Shown here piece by piece: positions 1,757 through 33,246 of a DNA stretch of 36,270 bases (positions are counted from its first letter, which is position 1; every line of letters begins with the position of its first letter). The notes under the pieces are model-generated. The model was not told where the DNA came from, searched no databases, and saw only the letters and a program-made list of their open reading frames with translations. This DNA is from Spirochaetales bacterium. GTDB lineage: Bacteria > Spirochaetota > Spirochaetia > DSM-2461. Location: assembly GCA_016936555.1 (NCBI GenBank), contig JAFGXR010000079.1:1-36270 (forward strand), written 5' to 3'. Both the position numbers and the translations under genes were made by a program.

Positions 1757-2677
1757 ATGACTTTTACAGTATTCGGAACAGGCGCAGTAGGGGCATATTA
1801 CGGAGCCAGACTGGCCCGGGCGGGGCACACCGTTCACTTTCTTGTCAGAAGCGATTACGAAGTGATAAAGGAAAAGGGATTGACGGTTCTCTCGCCTGAG
1901 GGGGATATCTATCTGGACAAACCTTCCGTTTTCAACTCTCCTGAAGCCGTCCCTCCTTCCGATGTCATCCTCATAGCCTTGAAAACAACGGGTAATAAAA
2001 ACCTGAAAGAACAGTTAAAACCTCTGATAGCGAGGAATACGGCTATTCTGATTCTGCAGAACGGGATGGGGATGGAGGAGGAGATGGCCTCATGGTTCCC
2101 CTCCAATCCCGTTCTGGGTGGGATGTGTTTCATCTGTTCCCGGAAGAAAGCTCCTGCCCTTATAGAGCATCTGGACAAAGGAGCCGTCACTCTCGGATGC
2201 GGAGATGAAAGAGACAGAGCCTTGAGAGATTCATTGTATTCCCTTTTCAACGAGGCGGGAATCGAGACATCTGTCGTTGAAAATCTCAGGGAAGCCCGAT
2301 GGCGCAAACTCCTGTGGAACATCCCCTACAACGGTCTTTCCGTCGTTCTGAACAGCGACACGAGGGAGCTGATGACCACAGAAGGTGCCCGCGAACTGGT
2401 CGAAGGTCTTATGGAGGAAGTCCTGGCCGGAGCGGCGGCCTGCCGATGCCCCATAGAGCGTGAGGCGATGGAAAAAATGCTTCATTACACGGAGATTATG
2501 ACACCTTACGAACCGAGTATGAAACAGGATTATATGGCGGGAAGACCTATGGAAATAGAATACATGTATGAGATTCCATTGGCACAGGCTCTTGAAAATG
2601 GTTGCGATATGAAAAAGGTCCGCATGCTGAAAGATCAGCTCCATTTTATTCAAAACCGGAACTTGCAAAAACACTGA
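1757..2677 (+). CDS. Ketopantoate reductase family (ApbA/PanE-like) oxidoreductase
   Basis: Predicted NAD(P)H-dependent 2-dehydropantoate 2-reductase, which makes pantoate for coenzyme A synthesis; several paralogues of the family act on other 2-oxo acids. The N-terminal Rossmann motif is GTGAVGAYYGARLARAGH (GxGxxG, residues about 7-24). A central ILQNGMGMEEE segment and the KLLWNIPYNGLSVVL helix, with the catalytic Lys and Asn, match PanE. At 306 residues it has full family length. The ATG is preceded by AGGAG. The receptor gene follows after only 10 nt, suggesting cotranscription without obvious functional linkage. No other pantothenate gene is nearby, so a strict PanE assignment is not secure. 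Confidence 0.85.
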   Translation: MTFTVFGTGAVGAYYGARLARAGHTVHFLVRSDYEVIKEKGLTVLSPEGDIYLDKPSVFNSPEAVPPSDVILIALKTTGNKNLKEQLKPLIARNTAILILQNGMGMEEEMASWFPSNPVLGGMCFICSRKKAPALIEHLDKGAVTLGCGDERDRALRDSLYSLFNEAGIETSVVENLREARWRKLLWNIPYNGLSVVLNSDTRELMTTEGARELVEGLMEEVLAGAAACRCPIEREAMEKMLHYTEIMTPYEPSMKQDYMAGRPMEIEYMYEIPLAQALENGCDMKKVRMLKDQLHFIQNRNLQKH

Positions 2678-2687
2678 TCCATCACTT

Positions 2688-4946
2688 ATGATTATTTCAA
2701 TGAAAAGACAACTCCTGATAACGGCAATGTTTACATTCTTCATCCAAACTTCTCTTTTTGCCGGGGATTCCTCCTGGTACCTGGACCTGAACAGTTATCC
2801 CCTTTATGCAAAATCAGGTTTCACCATATCTGACACTCAAATCCATCCGGGAATATCCGGGGAGGAATGGACGGTCATCCCTCCTGCGCAAAAGAGAGGA
2901 CGGCTCGCGAGACCGGTAGACCTCAATATCCCGGGGATTCCCGTTCCCCGGTTTTTCTCTTTTCAGAAACACGACCTTGTGGATCTGACCTATTCGATTC
3001 CTTTTACGTTGAATATTCCCGGAGGCATCGATGTCCCGGGTGTTCATCTGGCCTCGTTGGGAGACAACTGGGAGATTTATCTGAACGGAATACCGGTATA
3101 TTCGGAAATGGATCTGGACCGGGACGGCGGAATAAAAGTCCATCATGCACGGCGCGACGTTTACTTTCCCCTGGACCGGGCTCTTTTCAAAAACGGTGAG
3201 AACCTTCTGGTCATCCATCTGATAGTTGATCCGGGATTTGAATCGACCGGTTTCCATCTGGCTTATCCCTATTATTTCGATAGTTTTGTAAATATAAGCA
3301 AAGCCAATACGTCCCTTCTGACTTTTGCATTACTCATTCTCTATCTCTTTATGGGGATATACCATATATTTCTCTATTTTTCCGAACGGAACTACCGCTA
3401 TAACCTCTTTTACGGTTTGTTTTCAACCGATTTGTTTCTGTATCTCTTTATGCGGACCAATATTGTTTACAACCTGATTCCCGATACATCGATAGTTTTA
3501 AAAATCGAATTGATCAGCCTCTTCGGAATTCTGCCGGCTGTCAGCGCCTTCCTGCAGCTGGTACAAAACAGAAGTGTCAATAAATTGACCCGATATTACT
3601 CCCTGTTCAACCTTTTTCTGGCGATTGCCGTCATCTTTACACCTGCCAATATCAATCTGGATATACTCAGGATCTGGCAGATTGTAAGCCTGGCCATGAT
3701 CCTCTACATTTTCATTTACCTCATTCTCTGGCAGTTTGTCTCCGTCTTCAGACGGAGATTGAACAGAAGGGATACAGGGCAGAAGGGCATGAACCGATTC
3801 CGGGTCTTTTTGCAGACCCTCTCTAAAACAGCCATCGGAAACCTTCTGATCGGGGGGATAATACTCGTCTCGACGGCGGTATACGATATTCTCGACTCCA
3901 TGTTTTTCCAGAGAGATCTAGTTCTGACCAATTACGGCTTTCTGGTTTTCACTCTGGGCAGCGCCTTTATCCTGGCGAACCGTTTCGCCTTTATGAACAA
4001 GCAGACCGCCCGGTTGAATCAGTCCCTGGAAAAGAAGATACAGGAAGTCGAGCAGGCCTCTGAAATGTCCAAGGTATCGGAAAAGAAATACCGCAGTTTT
4101 TTTGAGGGGCACAGCGATGCCGTTCTCCTCCTCAATACCGATTTAACCATCCTGGATGGCAATAAAGCGGGGATAAAACTGCTGGGAACCAGCAAAAAAG
4201 AGTTGAGCCGCTTCAATCTTCTCCAGGCTCTGGCAACAGGCGGAGAGAATGGCGACCATGCGGGTAACCTCTTTAAACTGAAGTTCAGGGAATTGCTCAG
4301 GACGGGCAAAGCAGTTGAGCTCAAATTGCGGTTTTCAGGAAAAATGGGAGAAACCCATGCTGTCCTGGTCCGGATGGAGCTGATAAAGTCCTTATCCGCG
4401 GGAAGCCAGATTCTTTTCAGAGGCGTCATACTACAGCAGGATGCCCTTCTGAACTATTTCGTCGGAGAGAAAGTACAGTACAGAATCAGCAATTCCTTTC
4501 CTCTGACAGAGGAAATCAGCCGGCGTATCACCGCGAATCTCTCCCGCTATATGGACAGGGGAGAAGCGGAAGTTCTCTATATAGGTCTGAGGGAGATCAT
4601 TATAAATGCTGTGGAGCACGGAAACCTGCATATCTCTTTTGATGAGAAAACCCGTGCTCAGGCGCAGGGGCATTACATAGAATTTCTGATGGAGCGTCAG
4701 AAGCAGAAGGAATACCGGAGCAAAAAAGTCAAAATCGATGCCCTGATCACGCCAGAAAAAGTCGAATACAGAATTTGCGATGAAGGCCCGGGGTTTGATC
4801 ACAGAAAATTTCTCAATGCGGCACTCAGCTCGAAAAATGAAACTCTGGCCCACGGCAGGGGCATTGTCATGACCCTCCAGCTCTTCGATTCTGTTTCCTA
4901 CAACGATAAAGGGAATGAAGTGACATTGATGAAACGGCTGAAATAG
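2688..4946 (+). CDS. 7TMR-DISM receptor with PAS-like region and RsbW-like ATPase domain
   Basis: Membrane sensor. A signal peptide is followed by an extracellular beta-rich domain (about 25-205) typical of 7TMR-DISM receptors. Seven hydrophobic helices lie at about 205-425. A short coiled coil follows, then a PAS-like domain starting near KYRSFFEGHSDAVLLL, and a C-terminal GHKL ATPase. The ATPase has the N-box EIIINAVEHGN, then DEGPGFD and GRG, which resemble anti-sigma kinases such as RsbW or SpoIIAB more than classical histidine kinases. No HisKA phosphoacceptor helix is visible. The start at 2688 lacks a Shine-Dalgarno sequence and may rely on coupling to the gene ending at 2677; ATG 2700 (MKRQLL) is an equally good start. 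Family is firm, while the partner and output are unknown. Confidence 0.85.
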   Translation: MIISMKRQLLITAMFTFFIQTSLFAGDSSWYLDLNSYPLYAKSGFTISDTQIHPGISGEEWTVIPPAQKRGRLARPVDLNIPGIPVPRFFSFQKHDLVDLTYSIPFTLNIPGGIDVPGVHLASLGDNWEIYLNGIPVYSEMDLDRDGGIKVHHARRDVYFPLDRALFKNGENLLVIHLIVDPGFESTGFHLAYPYYFDSFVNISKANTSLLTFALLILYLFMGIYHIFLYFSERNYRYNLFYGLFSTDLFLYLFMRTNIVYNLIPDTSIVLKIELISLFGILPAVSAFLQLVQNRSVNKLTRYYSLFNLFLAIAVIFTPANINLDILRIWQIVSLAMILYIFIYLILWQFVSVFRRRLNRRDTGQKGMNRFRVFLQTLSKTAIGNLLIGGIILVSTAVYDILDSMFFQRDLVLTNYGFLVFTLGSAFILANRFAFMNKQTARLNQSLEKKIQEVEQASEMSKVSEKKYRSFFEGHSDAVLLLNTDLTILDGNKAGIKLLGTSKKELSRFNLLQALATGGENGDHAGNLFKLKFRELLRTGKAVELKLRFSGKMGETHAVLVRMELIKSLSAGSQILFRGVILQQDALLNYFVGEKVQYRISNSFPLTEEISRRITANLSRYMDRGEAEVLYIGLREIIINAVEHGNLHISFDEKTRAQAQGHYIEFLMERQKQKEYRSKKVKIDALITPEKVEYRICDEGPGFDHRKFLNAALSSKNETLAHGRGIVMTLQLFDSVSYNDKGNEVTLMKRLK

Positions 4947-27547: not shown

Positions 27548-27576
27548 TTGACCATATAGCAAACCTTATATATATT
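27548..27576 (+). promoter_or_regulatory. Sigma70 promoter of the ferredoxin-transporter operon
   Basis: TTGACC (27548-27553), exactly 17 nt, then TATATT (27571-27576). The predicted start near 27583 is just upstream of the palindromic site at 27586, which would place a repressor over the start site. Confidence 0.6.
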
Positions 27577-27585
27577 AGGCTTATC

Positions 27586-27601
27586 TAATTTGCATATGCA
27601 C
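27586..27601. promoter_or_regulatory. Palindromic operator candidate, copy 1
   Basis: TAATTTGCATATGCAC with the perfect 10-bp palindrome TGCATATGCA at 27591-27600. The same 16 bp occur at 31422-31437 before the flavoprotein gene. ArsR-type repressors often use ATAT/GCATATGC-like palindromes, but no regulator gene is in the window. Confidence 0.6.
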
Positions 27602-27620: not shown

Positions 27621-27905
27621 ATGCCCTGGATAAATGAAGATCAATGCCGCGGATGCGGCGCCTGCGTCAGGGTCTGCCCTGTAAATGCCATTTCCATGAA
27701 CAGCAGCAGAATCGCTGTCATAGACCAGTCAAAATGCACAAAATGCGGAAACTGTCTTTCTCTCTGTCCGATGGATTGCATCCGCCCGAACTCGGAGAAC
27801 AGCGATCTGAAAGGTCAGGGCGGCGGTGCGGCTATGAGATCCGGTAGCGGATCGGGAGCCGGCAGAAGAGGTCCGGGTTCCGGTTTGGGACGGGGACGGA
27901 GATAA
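27621..27905 (+). CDS. 2[4Fe-4S] ferredoxin with Gly/Ser/Arg-rich tail
   Basis: A 94-residue electron carrier. Two classical clusters are CRGCGACVRVCPVNAI and CTKCGNCLSLCPMDCI within the first 58 residues. The extra C-terminal tail (about 63-94) is made of Gly, Ser and Arg (GQGGGAAMRSGSGSGAGRR and on), unusual for a ferredoxin and probably disordered. AGGAG precedes the ATG by about 8 nt. The TDT transporter gene starts 3 nt after the stop, so both are expressed from the promoter at 27548 and the palindromic operator. An electron-transfer role is sure; the partner is not. Confidence 0.92.
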   Translation: MPWINEDQCRGCGACVRVCPVNAISMNSSRIAVIDQSKCTKCGNCLSLCPMDCIRPNSENSDLKGQGGGAAMRSGSGSGAGRRGPGSGLGRGRR

Positions 27906-27908
27906 ACA

Positions 27909-28994
27909 ATGAAAGAAAATAAAACAAAAGGATTTTCCCTTGAAGCCTTTGTCCCTTCCTGGCCCTCATCCGTTATGGGAACAGGTATTATACCGGTAGC
28001 GCTCTATCTCGGGCAGAAGACTGTGCCTTTTTTCTACAGCCTTTCCATTTTTTTCACAGCCCTGACGTTCCTTTTGCTGACCATAGTTTTCGGATTGTGG
28101 ATAGCACGGCTTTTCAAACACCCGAAGCAGTTTTATCTGGAGCTCCATCATCCCGTTGCCGGATCTTTTCTGCCGACCATGCCTATAGCTTTCATGATTG
28201 CCGCAATCGATCTCCTGCTGACCGGTCCCGGTTTCATGGAATCTTCCAGGGCGGTTTTCATTGTCTGGATCATGTTTCTCGGCGGGACAGCGGGCATATA
28301 CCTGTTCAGCTGGCTGATAATGCCTGTTCTGTTTCAGAGCGACAAGGTCAAAGCGGGCCATGGAACATTCGGCTGGTATATCCCGCCCGTATCCCATCTG
28401 ATCGTTCCCGTACTCGGTCTGGAATTAATTCATATGGGAGGAGAACAGGTCCCGGTCATGTTCATATTCTTCATTTCACTGATCAGTCTGGGAATCGGTC
28501 TTTTCCTCTTTATCTTTGTGGGAGCCAATGTCTTTCACAGATATCTCTATCATTCGACGCCGGTGGGAAAAATGGCCCCCACGCTGTTTATCGGACAGGC
28601 TCCGACAGCCGTTCTGGTTATAATTCTCGTTAAGCTGAACAGCGCTCTCCATCATATCGGGTTGATCGAGACGGAAAACTTCAGCGCCACGGCTCAGATC
28701 CTCGGAATCATCCTCTGGGGCTTCACTCTCTGGTGGATGGTACTGTCCATTGCGAAAACAGTATTTGCGCTGATGAGAAAGACAATGGGTTTCACATTGT
28801 CCTGGTGGGCTTTCACCTTTCCCATCGGAGCTGTTGCCGTATCGACGGGCTCACTGAACACACTGTTTCATATGGGGACTTTAAATTACATTCAGATAGG
28901 AATGAGCTCTTTTCTGCTGCTCGTCTGGCTTGCGGTTTCTGTCTTTACGGTACGGGGAATCTCAAACGGTTCCATTTTTGCGGAAGAGGATTAA
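27909..28994 (+). CDS. TDT-family transporter (TehA/SLAC1-like)
   Basis: Integral membrane protein of 361 residues with about ten hydrophobic helices, the TDT/SLAC1 architecture. FVPSWPSSVMGTGIIPVALY at the N-terminus is the family's first helix. Repeats of helix pairs with conserved aromatic residues follow (FGWYIPPVSHLIVPVLGLEL, TLFIGQAPTAVLVIIL, LSWWAFTFPIGAVAVSTG). Known members export sulfite (SSU1), transport C4-dicarboxylates or conduct anions; TehA is linked to tellurite resistance. It is coupled to ferredoxin by a 3-nt gap. Sharing an operator with a CoA-disulfide-reductase-like gene makes an anionic sulfur compound an attractive substrate, which is inference. Confidence 0.88.
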   Translation: MKENKTKGFSLEAFVPSWPSSVMGTGIIPVALYLGQKTVPFFYSLSIFFTALTFLLLTIVFGLWIARLFKHPKQFYLELHHPVAGSFLPTMPIAFMIAAIDLLLTGPGFMESSRAVFIVWIMFLGGTAGIYLFSWLIMPVLFQSDKVKAGHGTFGWYIPPVSHLIVPVLGLELIHMGGEQVPVMFIFFISLISLGIGLFLFIFVGANVFHRYLYHSTPVGKMAPTLFIGQAPTAVLVIILVKLNSALHHIGLIETENFSATAQILGIILWGFTLWWMVLSIAKTVFALMRKTMGFTLSWWAFTFPIGAVAVSTGSLNTLFHMGTLNYIQIGMSSFLLLVWLAVSVFTVRGISNGSIFAEED

Positions 28995-30050: not shown

Positions 30051-31367
30051 TCAAACAAGTTTTTTTCTGATATCTTCCGCGGCGAGCACGACCACATTGG
30101 CTGCGGGATAGAAGGACTGATGAGGCTGCGAAGCATAGCTCAATTCCGAGAGATCCTCGACAGTCGATTCTTTCTGGATTGCATAAGTCAACAGATCGAT
30201 GCGGCCTACAACAGGTTCCCGGCTGACGATCTGAGCCCCGAGGACCCTATGGGTCTTCCGGTCCGCGACCAGCTTCATCTGTTTGTTCTTGGCTCCGGGA
30301 ATGATGGGGAACTTGGTCGTTACGGCACTGTAACCCGTTACGACATCGTATCCGGCTCTAAGGGCGGCTTTTTCGCTGAGCCCCGTACCTCCGACGAAAT
30401 AGGTTCCGACCTTTGTCGCTGCTCCATTATAAAATCCGGGATACCGTCTCTCCTGACCATTGAGATTAAATCCCAGAACTTTGGCCATGGGTACGGCATT
30501 GGTCGCCAGCTTACCCGGTGTCACTTCGCCGGTTATACCGCTTGTAAACTGAGTACAGTCCCCTACGGCGTAAACATTTTCCAGATTGGTTTCCATTTTA
30601 TCATTGACGATGATACCGCCCCTGTCCATTTTCAAGGCGGAATTCTTAAAGAGGCTGACTTCGGCAACGGCTCCGACTGCGAAAACGACAAGAGTCGCCG
30701 GCAGCATCTCTCCGTTATCGAGAACAACGCCTTCCGCATGGTCCGTCCCTTTGACTTCCGTAACTTTAACACCCAGATGGACATTGACACCCTGTTCTTC
30801 CAGCTCTTTGTAAAGCAGATCCTGCATATCCTTATCGACCAGATTGGGAAGAACCGATTCCTCCAGATCGACAAGCTCAACTTCCACGCCTCTGTGGTTC
30901 AGAGCCTGGGCCAGTTCGATGCCGATTGCGCCGGCCCCGACGACGACCGCCCGGTCGAGACCGTCATTGACGATGTGATTGACAAGAGCCAGGTCCTTTT
31001 CCGTTTTGAAACCCATTACGCCTTTGAGGCTGCTTCCGGGAACAGGGGGAATAAAGGGAACCGCTCCGGTAGCGATGATGAGTTTTTCATATCCGTATTC
31101 TTCACCGGATTCCATGTTGAGGATTTTTTTGTCCAGATCGACAGCCGCGACTGTGTCTCTGATAAGGGCCGCGCCGGACCCGGTAACCAGATTATCGCTT
31201 TTCAGCGTATCGCCGTGAGTAATAATTCCCTCGATGGCGTAGGGAAGAGCGCAGTAGATCATACTGGCTTTCTCCGGTCTTATGATAGCGACTCTCTTTC
31301 CGAGCATTTTAGCCAGAGTGATTCCGGCAGGGCCTCCCCCGATAACTATAATTTCGTGTTTTATCAT
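30051..31367 (-). CDS. CoA-disulfide reductase / NADH oxidase-like flavoprotein
   Basis: FAD-dependent pyridine nucleotide-disulfide oxidoreductase, 438 residues. The FAD motif is IIVIGGGPAGITLAK. The redox Cys is C39 in MIYCALPYAIEG, the single-cysteine arrangement of CoA-disulfide reductases, NADH oxidases and NADH peroxidases. NAD binding is AVVVGAGAIGIELAQAL, the second FAD motif is NVYAVGDCTQF, and the dimerisation end has LSYASQPHQSFYPAANV. There is no extra rhodanese domain. GGAAGGAG precedes the ATG. The promoter region carries the 16-bp palindromic motif shared with the ferredoxin operon. Reduction of CoA disulfide, persulfide, peroxide or oxygen are the possible activities. Confidence 0.92.
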   Translation of the reverse strand: MIKHEIIVIGGGPAGITLAKMLGKRVAIIRPEKASMIYCALPYAIEGIITHGDTLKSDNLVTGSGAALIRDTVAAVDLDKKILNMESGEEYGYEKLIIATGAVPFIPPVPGSSLKGVMGFKTEKDLALVNHIVNDGLDRAVVVGAGAIGIELAQALNHRGVEVELVDLEESVLPNLVDKDMQDLLYKELEEQGVNVHLGVKVTEVKGTDHAEGVVLDNGEMLPATLVVFAVGAVAEVSLFKNSALKMDRGGIIVNDKMETNLENVYAVGDCTQFTSGITGEVTPGKLATNAVPMAKVLGFNLNGQERRYPGFYNGAATKVGTYFVGGTGLSEKAALRAGYDVVTGYSAVTTKFPIIPGAKNKQMKLVADRKTHRVLGAQIVSREPVVGRIDLLTYAIQKESTVEDLSELSYASQPHQSFYPAANVVVLAAEDIRKKLV

Positions 31368-31421: not shown

Positions 31422-31437
31422 TAATTTGCATATGCAC
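31422..31437. promoter_or_regulatory. Palindromic operator candidate, copy 2
   Basis: TAATTTGCATATGCAC, identical over 16 bp to 27586-27601, with TGCATATGCA at 31427-31436. For the leftward flavoprotein gene it lies just downstream of a TAATAT -10 candidate (plus 31442-31447), the same placement relative to the start as in copy 1. It is also 121 bp upstream of the divergent gene at 31558. Confidence 0.6.
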
Positions 31438-31557
31438 GCTTATATTAGTTGAGACTATACACCTTAGCTGCAAATAAAGCAATAGATAAAGAATGATTTA
31501 TCCAATTGTAAAATTCGCCGGAACGTGAAATGATTACGCAAACATAAGGAAAAACCG

Positions 31558-33246
31558 ATGGAAAAAAGCGATAACCGCTCAACCTGCATTCCCGGAGAGT
31601 TTCTCTCTTCCACTCTGGGAGAGAGAGTCCTGATTTTTGATGAGTCAATGGATCAGGAAATGATGGAGAATACCATAAACTATCTTCATGAAAAAATGAA
31701 ACACGATGAATTCAGCGATGAAAGGTTCGCTATCCTTCTGAAACCCGGAACTTACAATCTGGATCTGACCATTGATTACTATATGCAGGCAGCCGGTCTC
31801 GGAAAAGGACCCGGAGATGTAATCATCAGAGGCTCGGTTCAGTCTATCACCACAACACAGAACAATAATGTAACGATCATGTTCTGGCGGGCGGCGGAAA
31901 ATATGACAGTAGAGCCGTCAGATAAAGATAAACCTGTTATCTGGGCAGTATCACAGGCTGCGCCTTACAGAAGAATGCATATAAAAGGCGATTTGATCTT
32001 CGATCAGAACGGATGGGCCAGCGGCGGATATCTGGGCAACTCCCTGGTTGAAGGAAAAGCAGGAACGGGAAGCGGTCAGCAGTGGTTTACCAGAAACTCC
32101 CGCCTGGGGGAATGGTACGGCGGCCAGTGGAACCGGACCTTTATCGGTGTCGAAGGCGCTCCGGAGGAGAATTGGCCCCACGAGCCGACAACCACCCTTG
32201 AAAGCGCACCTCTATTCCGGGAAAAGCCTTTTCTGACAATCAACGACGCGGGAGATACGGGAATCTTTGTTCCGGCATTAAGGGCGGAGAATAAAGGTGT
32301 AACCTGGAAGGGAGAAAAGGAGAAAGGGGAATGGATCAGCCTGGACCGGTGCTTTATAGCTTTTCCGGAACAGCATTCAGCGGAACAGATCAATGAGGCC
32401 CTGGCTGAGGGATTCCATCTTATACTGACACCCGGCATATACAGGATTGATGAGCCTCTGAAAGTGACCCGGCCCGATACGGTGGTTATGGGACTGGGTA
32501 TGGCCACACTGATTCCTTTAAAGGGAACAGCCGCTCTTGAAACATCTGATGAACCGGGAATCATTATCTCCGGTCTGCTGGTCGATGCCGGCCCTGAAGA
32601 ATCGCCGGTTCTGGTGCGGATCGGCGAAAAAAACAACAGAAACTATAACCGCGGCAACCCCCTGTCCCTTCACGATATATTCTGCCGGATCGGGGGCGCT
32701 GCTCCGGGCAGGGCGGAAATATGCATGGAGGTGAACAGTCACTGCGCCATTCTCGATCATCTCTGGCTCTGGCGTGCCGATCACGGAGCCGGTGTCGAAT
32801 GGAAGGGGAATACCTGCCGGAACGGCCTGGTCGTCAACGGAGACGATGTTTCAGCCTACGGCCTTTTCAACGAGCACTTTCAGGAATATCAGACGCTATG
32901 GAACGGAGAAAGGGGAACAACGGTATTCTACCAGTCGGAACTCCCCTACGATCCGCCTGACCAGTCCGACTGGACAGCTCCCGACGGGCATGACGGGTTT
33001 GCATCTTATAAAGTGGCCGACGGAGTGAAAGAACACCGTGCCTACGGACTGGGAATCTACGCTTTTCTGGGTATTAAAGAAAACAGCGACAAAAAGGTTC
33101 ATCTGGAAAATGCCGTGGAAACTCCCGGAACCGGCGGGATAGAGATTAAACACATAACAACATTTTCCAGGGGATACGGGAGTATCCGCCACAGCCTGAA
33201 CGGACAGGGCGGATCAACAGAACCGGGGTCGAACCGGTTCTATTAA
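31558..33246 (+). CDS. Large right-handed beta-helix-like protein (actinobacterial 'adenylyl cyclase'-annotated family)
   Basis: A 562-residue protein with a predicted pectin-lyase-type beta-helix: LKPGTYNLDLTIDYYMQAAG, then DTVVMGLGMATLIPLKGTAA, AILDHLWLWRADHGAGVEW, GLVVNGDDVSAYGLFNEHFQ, YDPPDQSDW and YKVADGVKEHRAYGLGIYAF. From memory these segments closely match large secreted actinobacterial proteins often annotated 'adenylyl cyclase' or coagulation factor 5/8-type; that name is not supported by any cyclase motif here. A carbohydrate-active role is plausible because of fold and family relatives. No signal peptide is visible at the chosen ATG (AAGGA upstream), which is odd for such a protein. 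The catalytic site is unknown. Confidence 0.7.
   Translation: MEKSDNRSTCIPGEFLSSTLGERVLIFDESMDQEMMENTINYLHEKMKHDEFSDERFAILLKPGTYNLDLTIDYYMQAAGLGKGPGDVIIRGSVQSITTTQNNNVTIMFWRAAENMTVEPSDKDKPVIWAVSQAAPYRRMHIKGDLIFDQNGWASGGYLGNSLVEGKAGTGSGQQWFTRNSRLGEWYGGQWNRTFIGVEGAPEENWPHEPTTTLESAPLFREKPFLTINDAGDTGIFVPALRAENKGVTWKGEKEKGEWISLDRCFIAFPEQHSAEQINEALAEGFHLILTPGIYRIDEPLKVTRPDTVVMGLGMATLIPLKGTAALETSDEPGIIISGLLVDAGPEESPVLVRIGEKNNRNYNRGNPLSLHDIFCRIGGAAPGRAEICMEVNSHCAILDHLWLWRADHGAGVEWKGNTCRNGLVVNGDDVSAYGLFNEHFQEYQTLWNGERGTTVFYQSELPYDPPDQSDWTAPDGHDGFASYKVADGVKEHRAYGLGIYAFLGIKENSDKKVHLENAVETPGTGGIEIKHITTFSRGYGSIRHSLNGQGGSTEPGSNRFY

Follow-up and report, generated by a model that had tools for sequence, protein, structure and literature searches.

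The window, a 36,270-nucleotide stretch of DNA from a Spirochaetales bacterium, carries a copy of the same short palindrome at each of two predicted promoters on opposite strands. On the forward strand, a predicted sigma70-type promoter (TTGACC-N17-TATATT, 27548–27576; 10 of 12 consensus matches) is followed by a putative operator located by motif scans (TTGCATATGCAC, 27590–27601, with its palindromic core TGCATATGCA at 27591–27600), by a gene for a 4Fe-4S dicluster ferredoxin with a Gly/Arg-rich tail (27621–27905; Pfam Fer4/Fer4_10) and by a gene for a TDT/SLAC1-family transporter (27909–28994; Pfam PF03595, E = 2.5e-50 over positions 14–348), which scores 161.4 bits against TIGR00816, under the cut-off of 237. 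On the reverse strand, a predicted promoter with a weak −35 element (TTGCTT-N17-TATAGT, 31454–31482; 8 of 12 consensus matches) and a second putative operator, found by the same scans in the 5′ UTR (GTGCATATGCAA on the strand of the gene, 31426–31437) and identical in the related genome G002, precede a gene for a CoA-disulfide-reductase-like flavin NAD(P)-dependent oxidoreductase (30051–31367; Pfam Pyr_redox_2, best NCBIfam match TIGR03385). A 562-residue open reading frame without a Pfam match (31558–33246) is divergent from this last gene, and the Gly/Arg-rich tail of the ferredoxin resembles the DUF5320 proteins of the regulon described below.

The initial annotation had reported an identical 16-mer containing a perfect palindrome at both promoters and had judged this identity unlikely to arise by chance, all of which our analysis bears out. 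A mismatch scan of the window returns exact copies of TAATTTGCATATGCAC at 27586–27601 and 31422–31437, with the decamer TGCATATGCA exact at both places, and no further match in the window at up to three mismatches (shuffle mean at that threshold 0.22). With a third exact copy on contig C27 (151842–151857), the 4.73-Mb genome holds three, against 0.0003–0.0011 expected under a Markov model, and all three lie at members of one gene set. The background came from shuffles and from a Markov model for which about 120 kb of the genome's own loci served as training sequence; the reversed-pattern controls contain CpG-rich strings and were given no weight. The decamer TGCATATGCA occurs nine times in the genome (about 2 expected), eight of these at promoters of one gene set, including the two in the window, and the 12-mer GTGCATATGCAC occurs three times (about 0.05 expected); the motif is not frequent within the coding regions of the source genome. 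The ninth decamer, at C14:31312 (around position 1501 of locus L125, in G000), lies inside a longer palindrome-like stretch, GCAAGCGATTGCATATGCAAGCGCTTGC, and is probably the site of another regulator, unrelated to the regulon. All related sites share the 12-bp palindrome GTGCATATGCAC, which, with its close variants, is the functional unit. In the window copies the outer half of the palindrome is imperfect, with T for G on one side, and the left flank TAATT is AT-rich, as at other sites, so that we interpret the 16-bp identity as the palindrome plus a similar flank and not as a longer motif.

A motif search of the source genome places about 12 copies of the palindrome, most of them grouped in a few loci, at promoters of one coherent gene set. 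On contig C88, sites at 391, 3481, 4466 and 6610 precede DUF1007-NicO (a Ni/Co transporter), DUF5320-DUF5320-DUF134, NifX-MinD-MinD (with MinD/ferredoxin ATPases) and a second NifX, respectively. On C27, the region separating a third NifX from a divergent thioredoxin-like/thioredoxin-reductase pair holds a site at 148940 and a GTGCATTTGCAC variant at 149030, and the site at 151842 precedes a second CoA-disulfide-reductase-like gene. The 117-residue thioredoxin-like protein has no Pfam or NCBIfam match and takes its name from gene place and cysteine motif only. Single variant sites precede the genes for a CGGC protein (C93), Mrp (C106) and, weakly, XdhC (C103). A palindrome-marked regulon, as initially proposed, thus exists, but it is not one of two redox operons alone: it comprises mainly Fe-S/metal-sulfur genes (NifX/MinD/Mrp/DUF5320/CGGC) together with thiol-redox genes, and by its gene content it is most likely an iron-sulfur/metal-sulfur cluster handling and thiol gene set of anaerobic bacteria.

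The window had been said to contain no cognate regulator, in agreement with our finding that the candidate sits elsewhere, on C88. We chose the DUF134 protein encoded at C88:4097–4420 as the candidate for its place within the regulon and its predicted DNA binding. It matches DUF134 (PF02001) at 72.7 bits (cut-off 27; positions 1–91 of 98) and Sigma70_r4_2 with an E-value of 8.7e-8, which corresponds to a helix-turn-helix of the sigma-70 region 4 type, and it has a weak match to solved ECF sigma factors. DUF134 is also named UPF0251 and corresponds to COG1342. We found no function, operator or regulon assigned to DUF134 in the open-licence papers searched, and a search of such papers by motif letters or family name returned nothing relevant; prior work may exist. 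The family occurs in 39 of the 61 genomes of our set of relatives, as a short type A (helix SR[GA]T[VI]QR, with a cysteine in LCD) and as other types. Subtype A forms one clade (support 100/97, 30 rows) that spans Spirochaetes and Desulfobacterota. Its LCD cysteine is present in 29/29 sequences and an N-terminal cysteine in 27/29, positions that in the other types are mostly replaced by Ala and by Val/Ile, respectively; as a lead, both cysteines are candidates for a thiol or metal-sulfur sensor.

The association between this helix and the palindrome was assessed across 88 DUF134 genes from two phyla, 29 with the helix SR[GA]T[VI]QR and 59 others, by scoring the palindrome with at most one mismatch within 4.5 kb of each gene. 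It lies near 25/29 type A genes and 2/59 others (p = 1.2e-15), that is, 21/23 versus 2/36 in Spirochaetes and 4/6 versus 0/23 in Desulfobacterota (p = 6e-4), p-values that overstate independence because the genes are related by descent; the stronger point is the type A clade itself, across the two phyla. Of the two positives outside type A, L169 results from a mis-framed overlap within a subtype A locus; the other was counted for a type B gene in G022, where type A is present as well, but its site belongs to a neighboring PNPOx-like flavoprotein gene. Among the four type A genes without a nearby site, L152 and L165 are cut by contig ends and L282 and L285, both from Desulfobacterota, are real exceptions; L284, a member of the type A clade whose helix was not parsed, likewise has no nearby palindrome. 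Counted per genome, exact GTGCATATGCAC occurs in 18/23 genomes with subtype A and in 4/38 without it (p = 1e-7). In Desulfobacterota it is found in 11/99 genomes, mostly not those with subtype A, so only the locus-level test is informative there. In one Desulfobacterota locus (L279, 769–4905), a NifU-like gene and a CGGC-like reading frame come after a subtype A DUF134 gene, a further link between the family and Fe-S assembly.

Genes with other helices have palindromes of their own, mostly CATATG-centered and about 20–50 bp upstream of the DUF134 start: ATGAACATATGTTCAT with SRPTF[ST]R, ATGCACATATGTGCAA with SRSTFTR, ATGAGCATATGCTCAT with SR[AQ]TFGR and ATTGGCATATGCTAAT with SRQTFGN. A 16-bp palindrome lies within 80 bp of 25/86 DUF134 genes compared with 42/620 other open reading frames of the same loci (p = 1.5e-8), and for many genes of the other subtypes the scan returned no palindrome. 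Two genomes, G030 and G055, have DUF134 genes of both kinds, each with its own palindrome. In L154, L156, L164, L167, L179 and L198, long DUF134 genes are divergent to another CoA-disulfide-reductase-like flavoprotein gene.

The regulon, the positions of its sites and the co-variation of helix and operator are thus computational observations, and we consider it probable that the motif is the palindromic operator of the short, cysteine-containing DUF134 factor at C88:4097–4420, a dimer of which, through its sigma-region-4-like helix-turn-helix, would most likely bind GTGCATATGCAC at about 12 promoters and repress them. The palindrome might instead belong to another factor and DUF134 be only one of the regulon's members; such a factor could be the TetR protein at C88:7126, an unlinked FNR/Rex-like protein or a response regulator that acts together with the hybrid kinase at C88:1945. 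The genes for the TetR protein and the hybrid kinase do adjoin the main cluster, and palindromic operators over promoters are typical of many regulator families; we nevertheless regard this explanation as unlikely, given that the palindrome tracks DUF134 subtype A across two phyla, that DUF134 paralogues of the same genome differ in their operators and that the kinase has no DNA-binding domain in Pfam. The TetR protein was rejected as the regulator, a relative having been found near the cluster only in G000 and G002. The kinase gene (1945–3429 in locus L069) encodes a hybrid histidine kinase with a receiver domain and is divergent to the DUF5320-DUF134 operon.

The direction of the proposed control is suggested by where the sites lie. 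In the window, the palindrome starts 13 bp after the −10 hexamer of the ferredoxin-TDT promoter and 16 bp after that of the CoA-disulfide-reductase-like gene; the initial annotation had placed both copies over the transcription start, whereas the best −35/−10 calls put them just downstream of the predicted start. The palindrome does cover the predicted start at the DUF134, NifX-MinD and NifX promoters, where a TTGACW-N17-TATMTT element ends −2 to 4 bp before it, and the C27 sites lie, as judged by eye, between hexamers of the −35 and −10 type. The predicted −10 boxes are weak at several targets. Sites between −35 and −10, over the start or just downstream, from which we deduce that RNA polymerase would be blocked, are found at most promoters, and the repressor-like placement noted at the outset is to that extent upheld. 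At DUF1007-NicO the site is perhaps upstream of a −35 box, where it fits repression less well; with this possible exception, the positions fit steric repression. It is also improbable that DUF134 binds the site and there activates transcription or serves the polymerase as a sigma-4-like co-factor: its resemblance to sigma region 4 and the DUF1007-NicO site would agree with such a role, but most sites occupy positions that normally block polymerase.

The orthologue of the window's CoA-disulfide-reductase-like gene in G002 (91% protein identity) has an identical site, and in G030 and G055 the operon order is operator-DUF134-CoA-disulfide-reductase-like-NifX. In G028, which has other DUF134 subtypes only, the promoter region of the gene carries TGAACATAAGTTCA, close to the DUF134 operator of that genome, ATGAACATATGTTCAA. 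The site expected at this gene if the motif is functional is therefore kept in G002, G030 and G055 and replaced by another operator type in G028, so that the operator at this target, if there is one, corresponds to the genome's DUF134 type. In G024 the gene comes after MinD-NifX; at the G011 and G054 orthologues we found no site. No close relative of the TDT transporter was found in congeners, and the ferredoxin query returned only distant matches in other genomes; sequence and position suggest regulon membership for this pair, which is absent from congeners. Exact GTGCATATGCAC is present at the promoters of four PNPOx-like flavin genes (L290, 2665–3051; L291, 2604–2981; L293, 3209–3595; L172, 2088–2507), which are therefore likely to be further targets, in G006, G020, G022 and G024. 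Although AT-rich promoters make partial identity likelier and the ferredoxin-TDT site is without phylogenetic support because the pair is not conserved, a chance or repeat-derived identity of the two window copies with no regulatory function is very improbable in view of a 16-mer seen three times, all in one gene set, where about 0.001 is expected in the genome, and of a site kept at the G002 gene with functional equivalents in G030, G055 and G028.

Under the DUF134 repressor reading, the protein would repress its own operon along with the NifX-like, MinD/ferredoxin ATPase, Mrp, CGGC, thioredoxin-like/reductase and CoA-disulfide-reductase-like genes and, in the source species, ferredoxin-TDT. 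We infer DNA binding by a dimer, repression and a thiol, sulfur or Fe-S signal, the last perhaps read by the invariant LCD cysteine. This reading would explain both window promoters and supply a domain that is widespread but of unknown function with a concrete operator, a regulon and a protein-DNA specificity code open to testing; it would also place the poorly understood NifX/MinD/DUF5320/CGGC clusters of anaerobes under the same switch as thiol-redox enzymes. More tentatively, and with more doubt than conviction, we suggest that DUF134 may be a large family of sigma4-like repressors in which the cysteine subtype senses thiol/sulfane-sulfur or Fe-S status in anaerobes, with a simple recognition-helix code whereby subtypes are distinguished by residues of the helix and by the bases on either side of a shared, mostly CATATG, center. 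If true, such a code would make operators and regulons predictable from sequence across bacteria.

Several known systems resemble parts of this one. The window oxidoreductase shares its fold, length and best NCBIfam match with CoA-disulfide reductase (TIGR03385) but scores 250.7 bits against an equivalog cut-off of 578.8, so that its substrate is not assignable. The ORange Protein (ORP) cluster of Desulfovibrio vulgaris contains paired MinD-type ATPases with ferredoxin inserts, NifX-type (Di-Nase) proteins and Mrp/MrpORP-type Fe-S carriers (PMC6345978, PMC3897727), and transcription of the orp operons of Desulfovibrio relies on sigma54, IHF and the activator DVU2106 (PMC3897727). The region C88:4508–7006 likewise has a MinD/ferredoxin ATPase pair with NifX-type protein(s), whereas the promoters of the source genome look sigma70-type and have the palindrome at the start, and the regulator linked to them would be DUF134. 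Control of the sigma54/ORP type was considered and rejected, as the kinase at C88:1945 is without a sigma54-activation domain (Pfam) and three promoters read TTGACW-N17-TATMTT. Thiol/persulfide repressors that control CoA-disulfide-reductase-like or thiol-redox genes include CstR of the CsoR family and BigR/SqrR of the ArsR family; DUF134 may parallel them in cysteine-based sensing, although the protein families differ. The C88 protein is itself a clear member of DUF134, predicted to bind DNA through a sigma-region-4-like helix-turn-helix, and what sets the present picture of the family apart from the previous one is that putative operators are now assigned by subtype, on the strength of co-variation and position.
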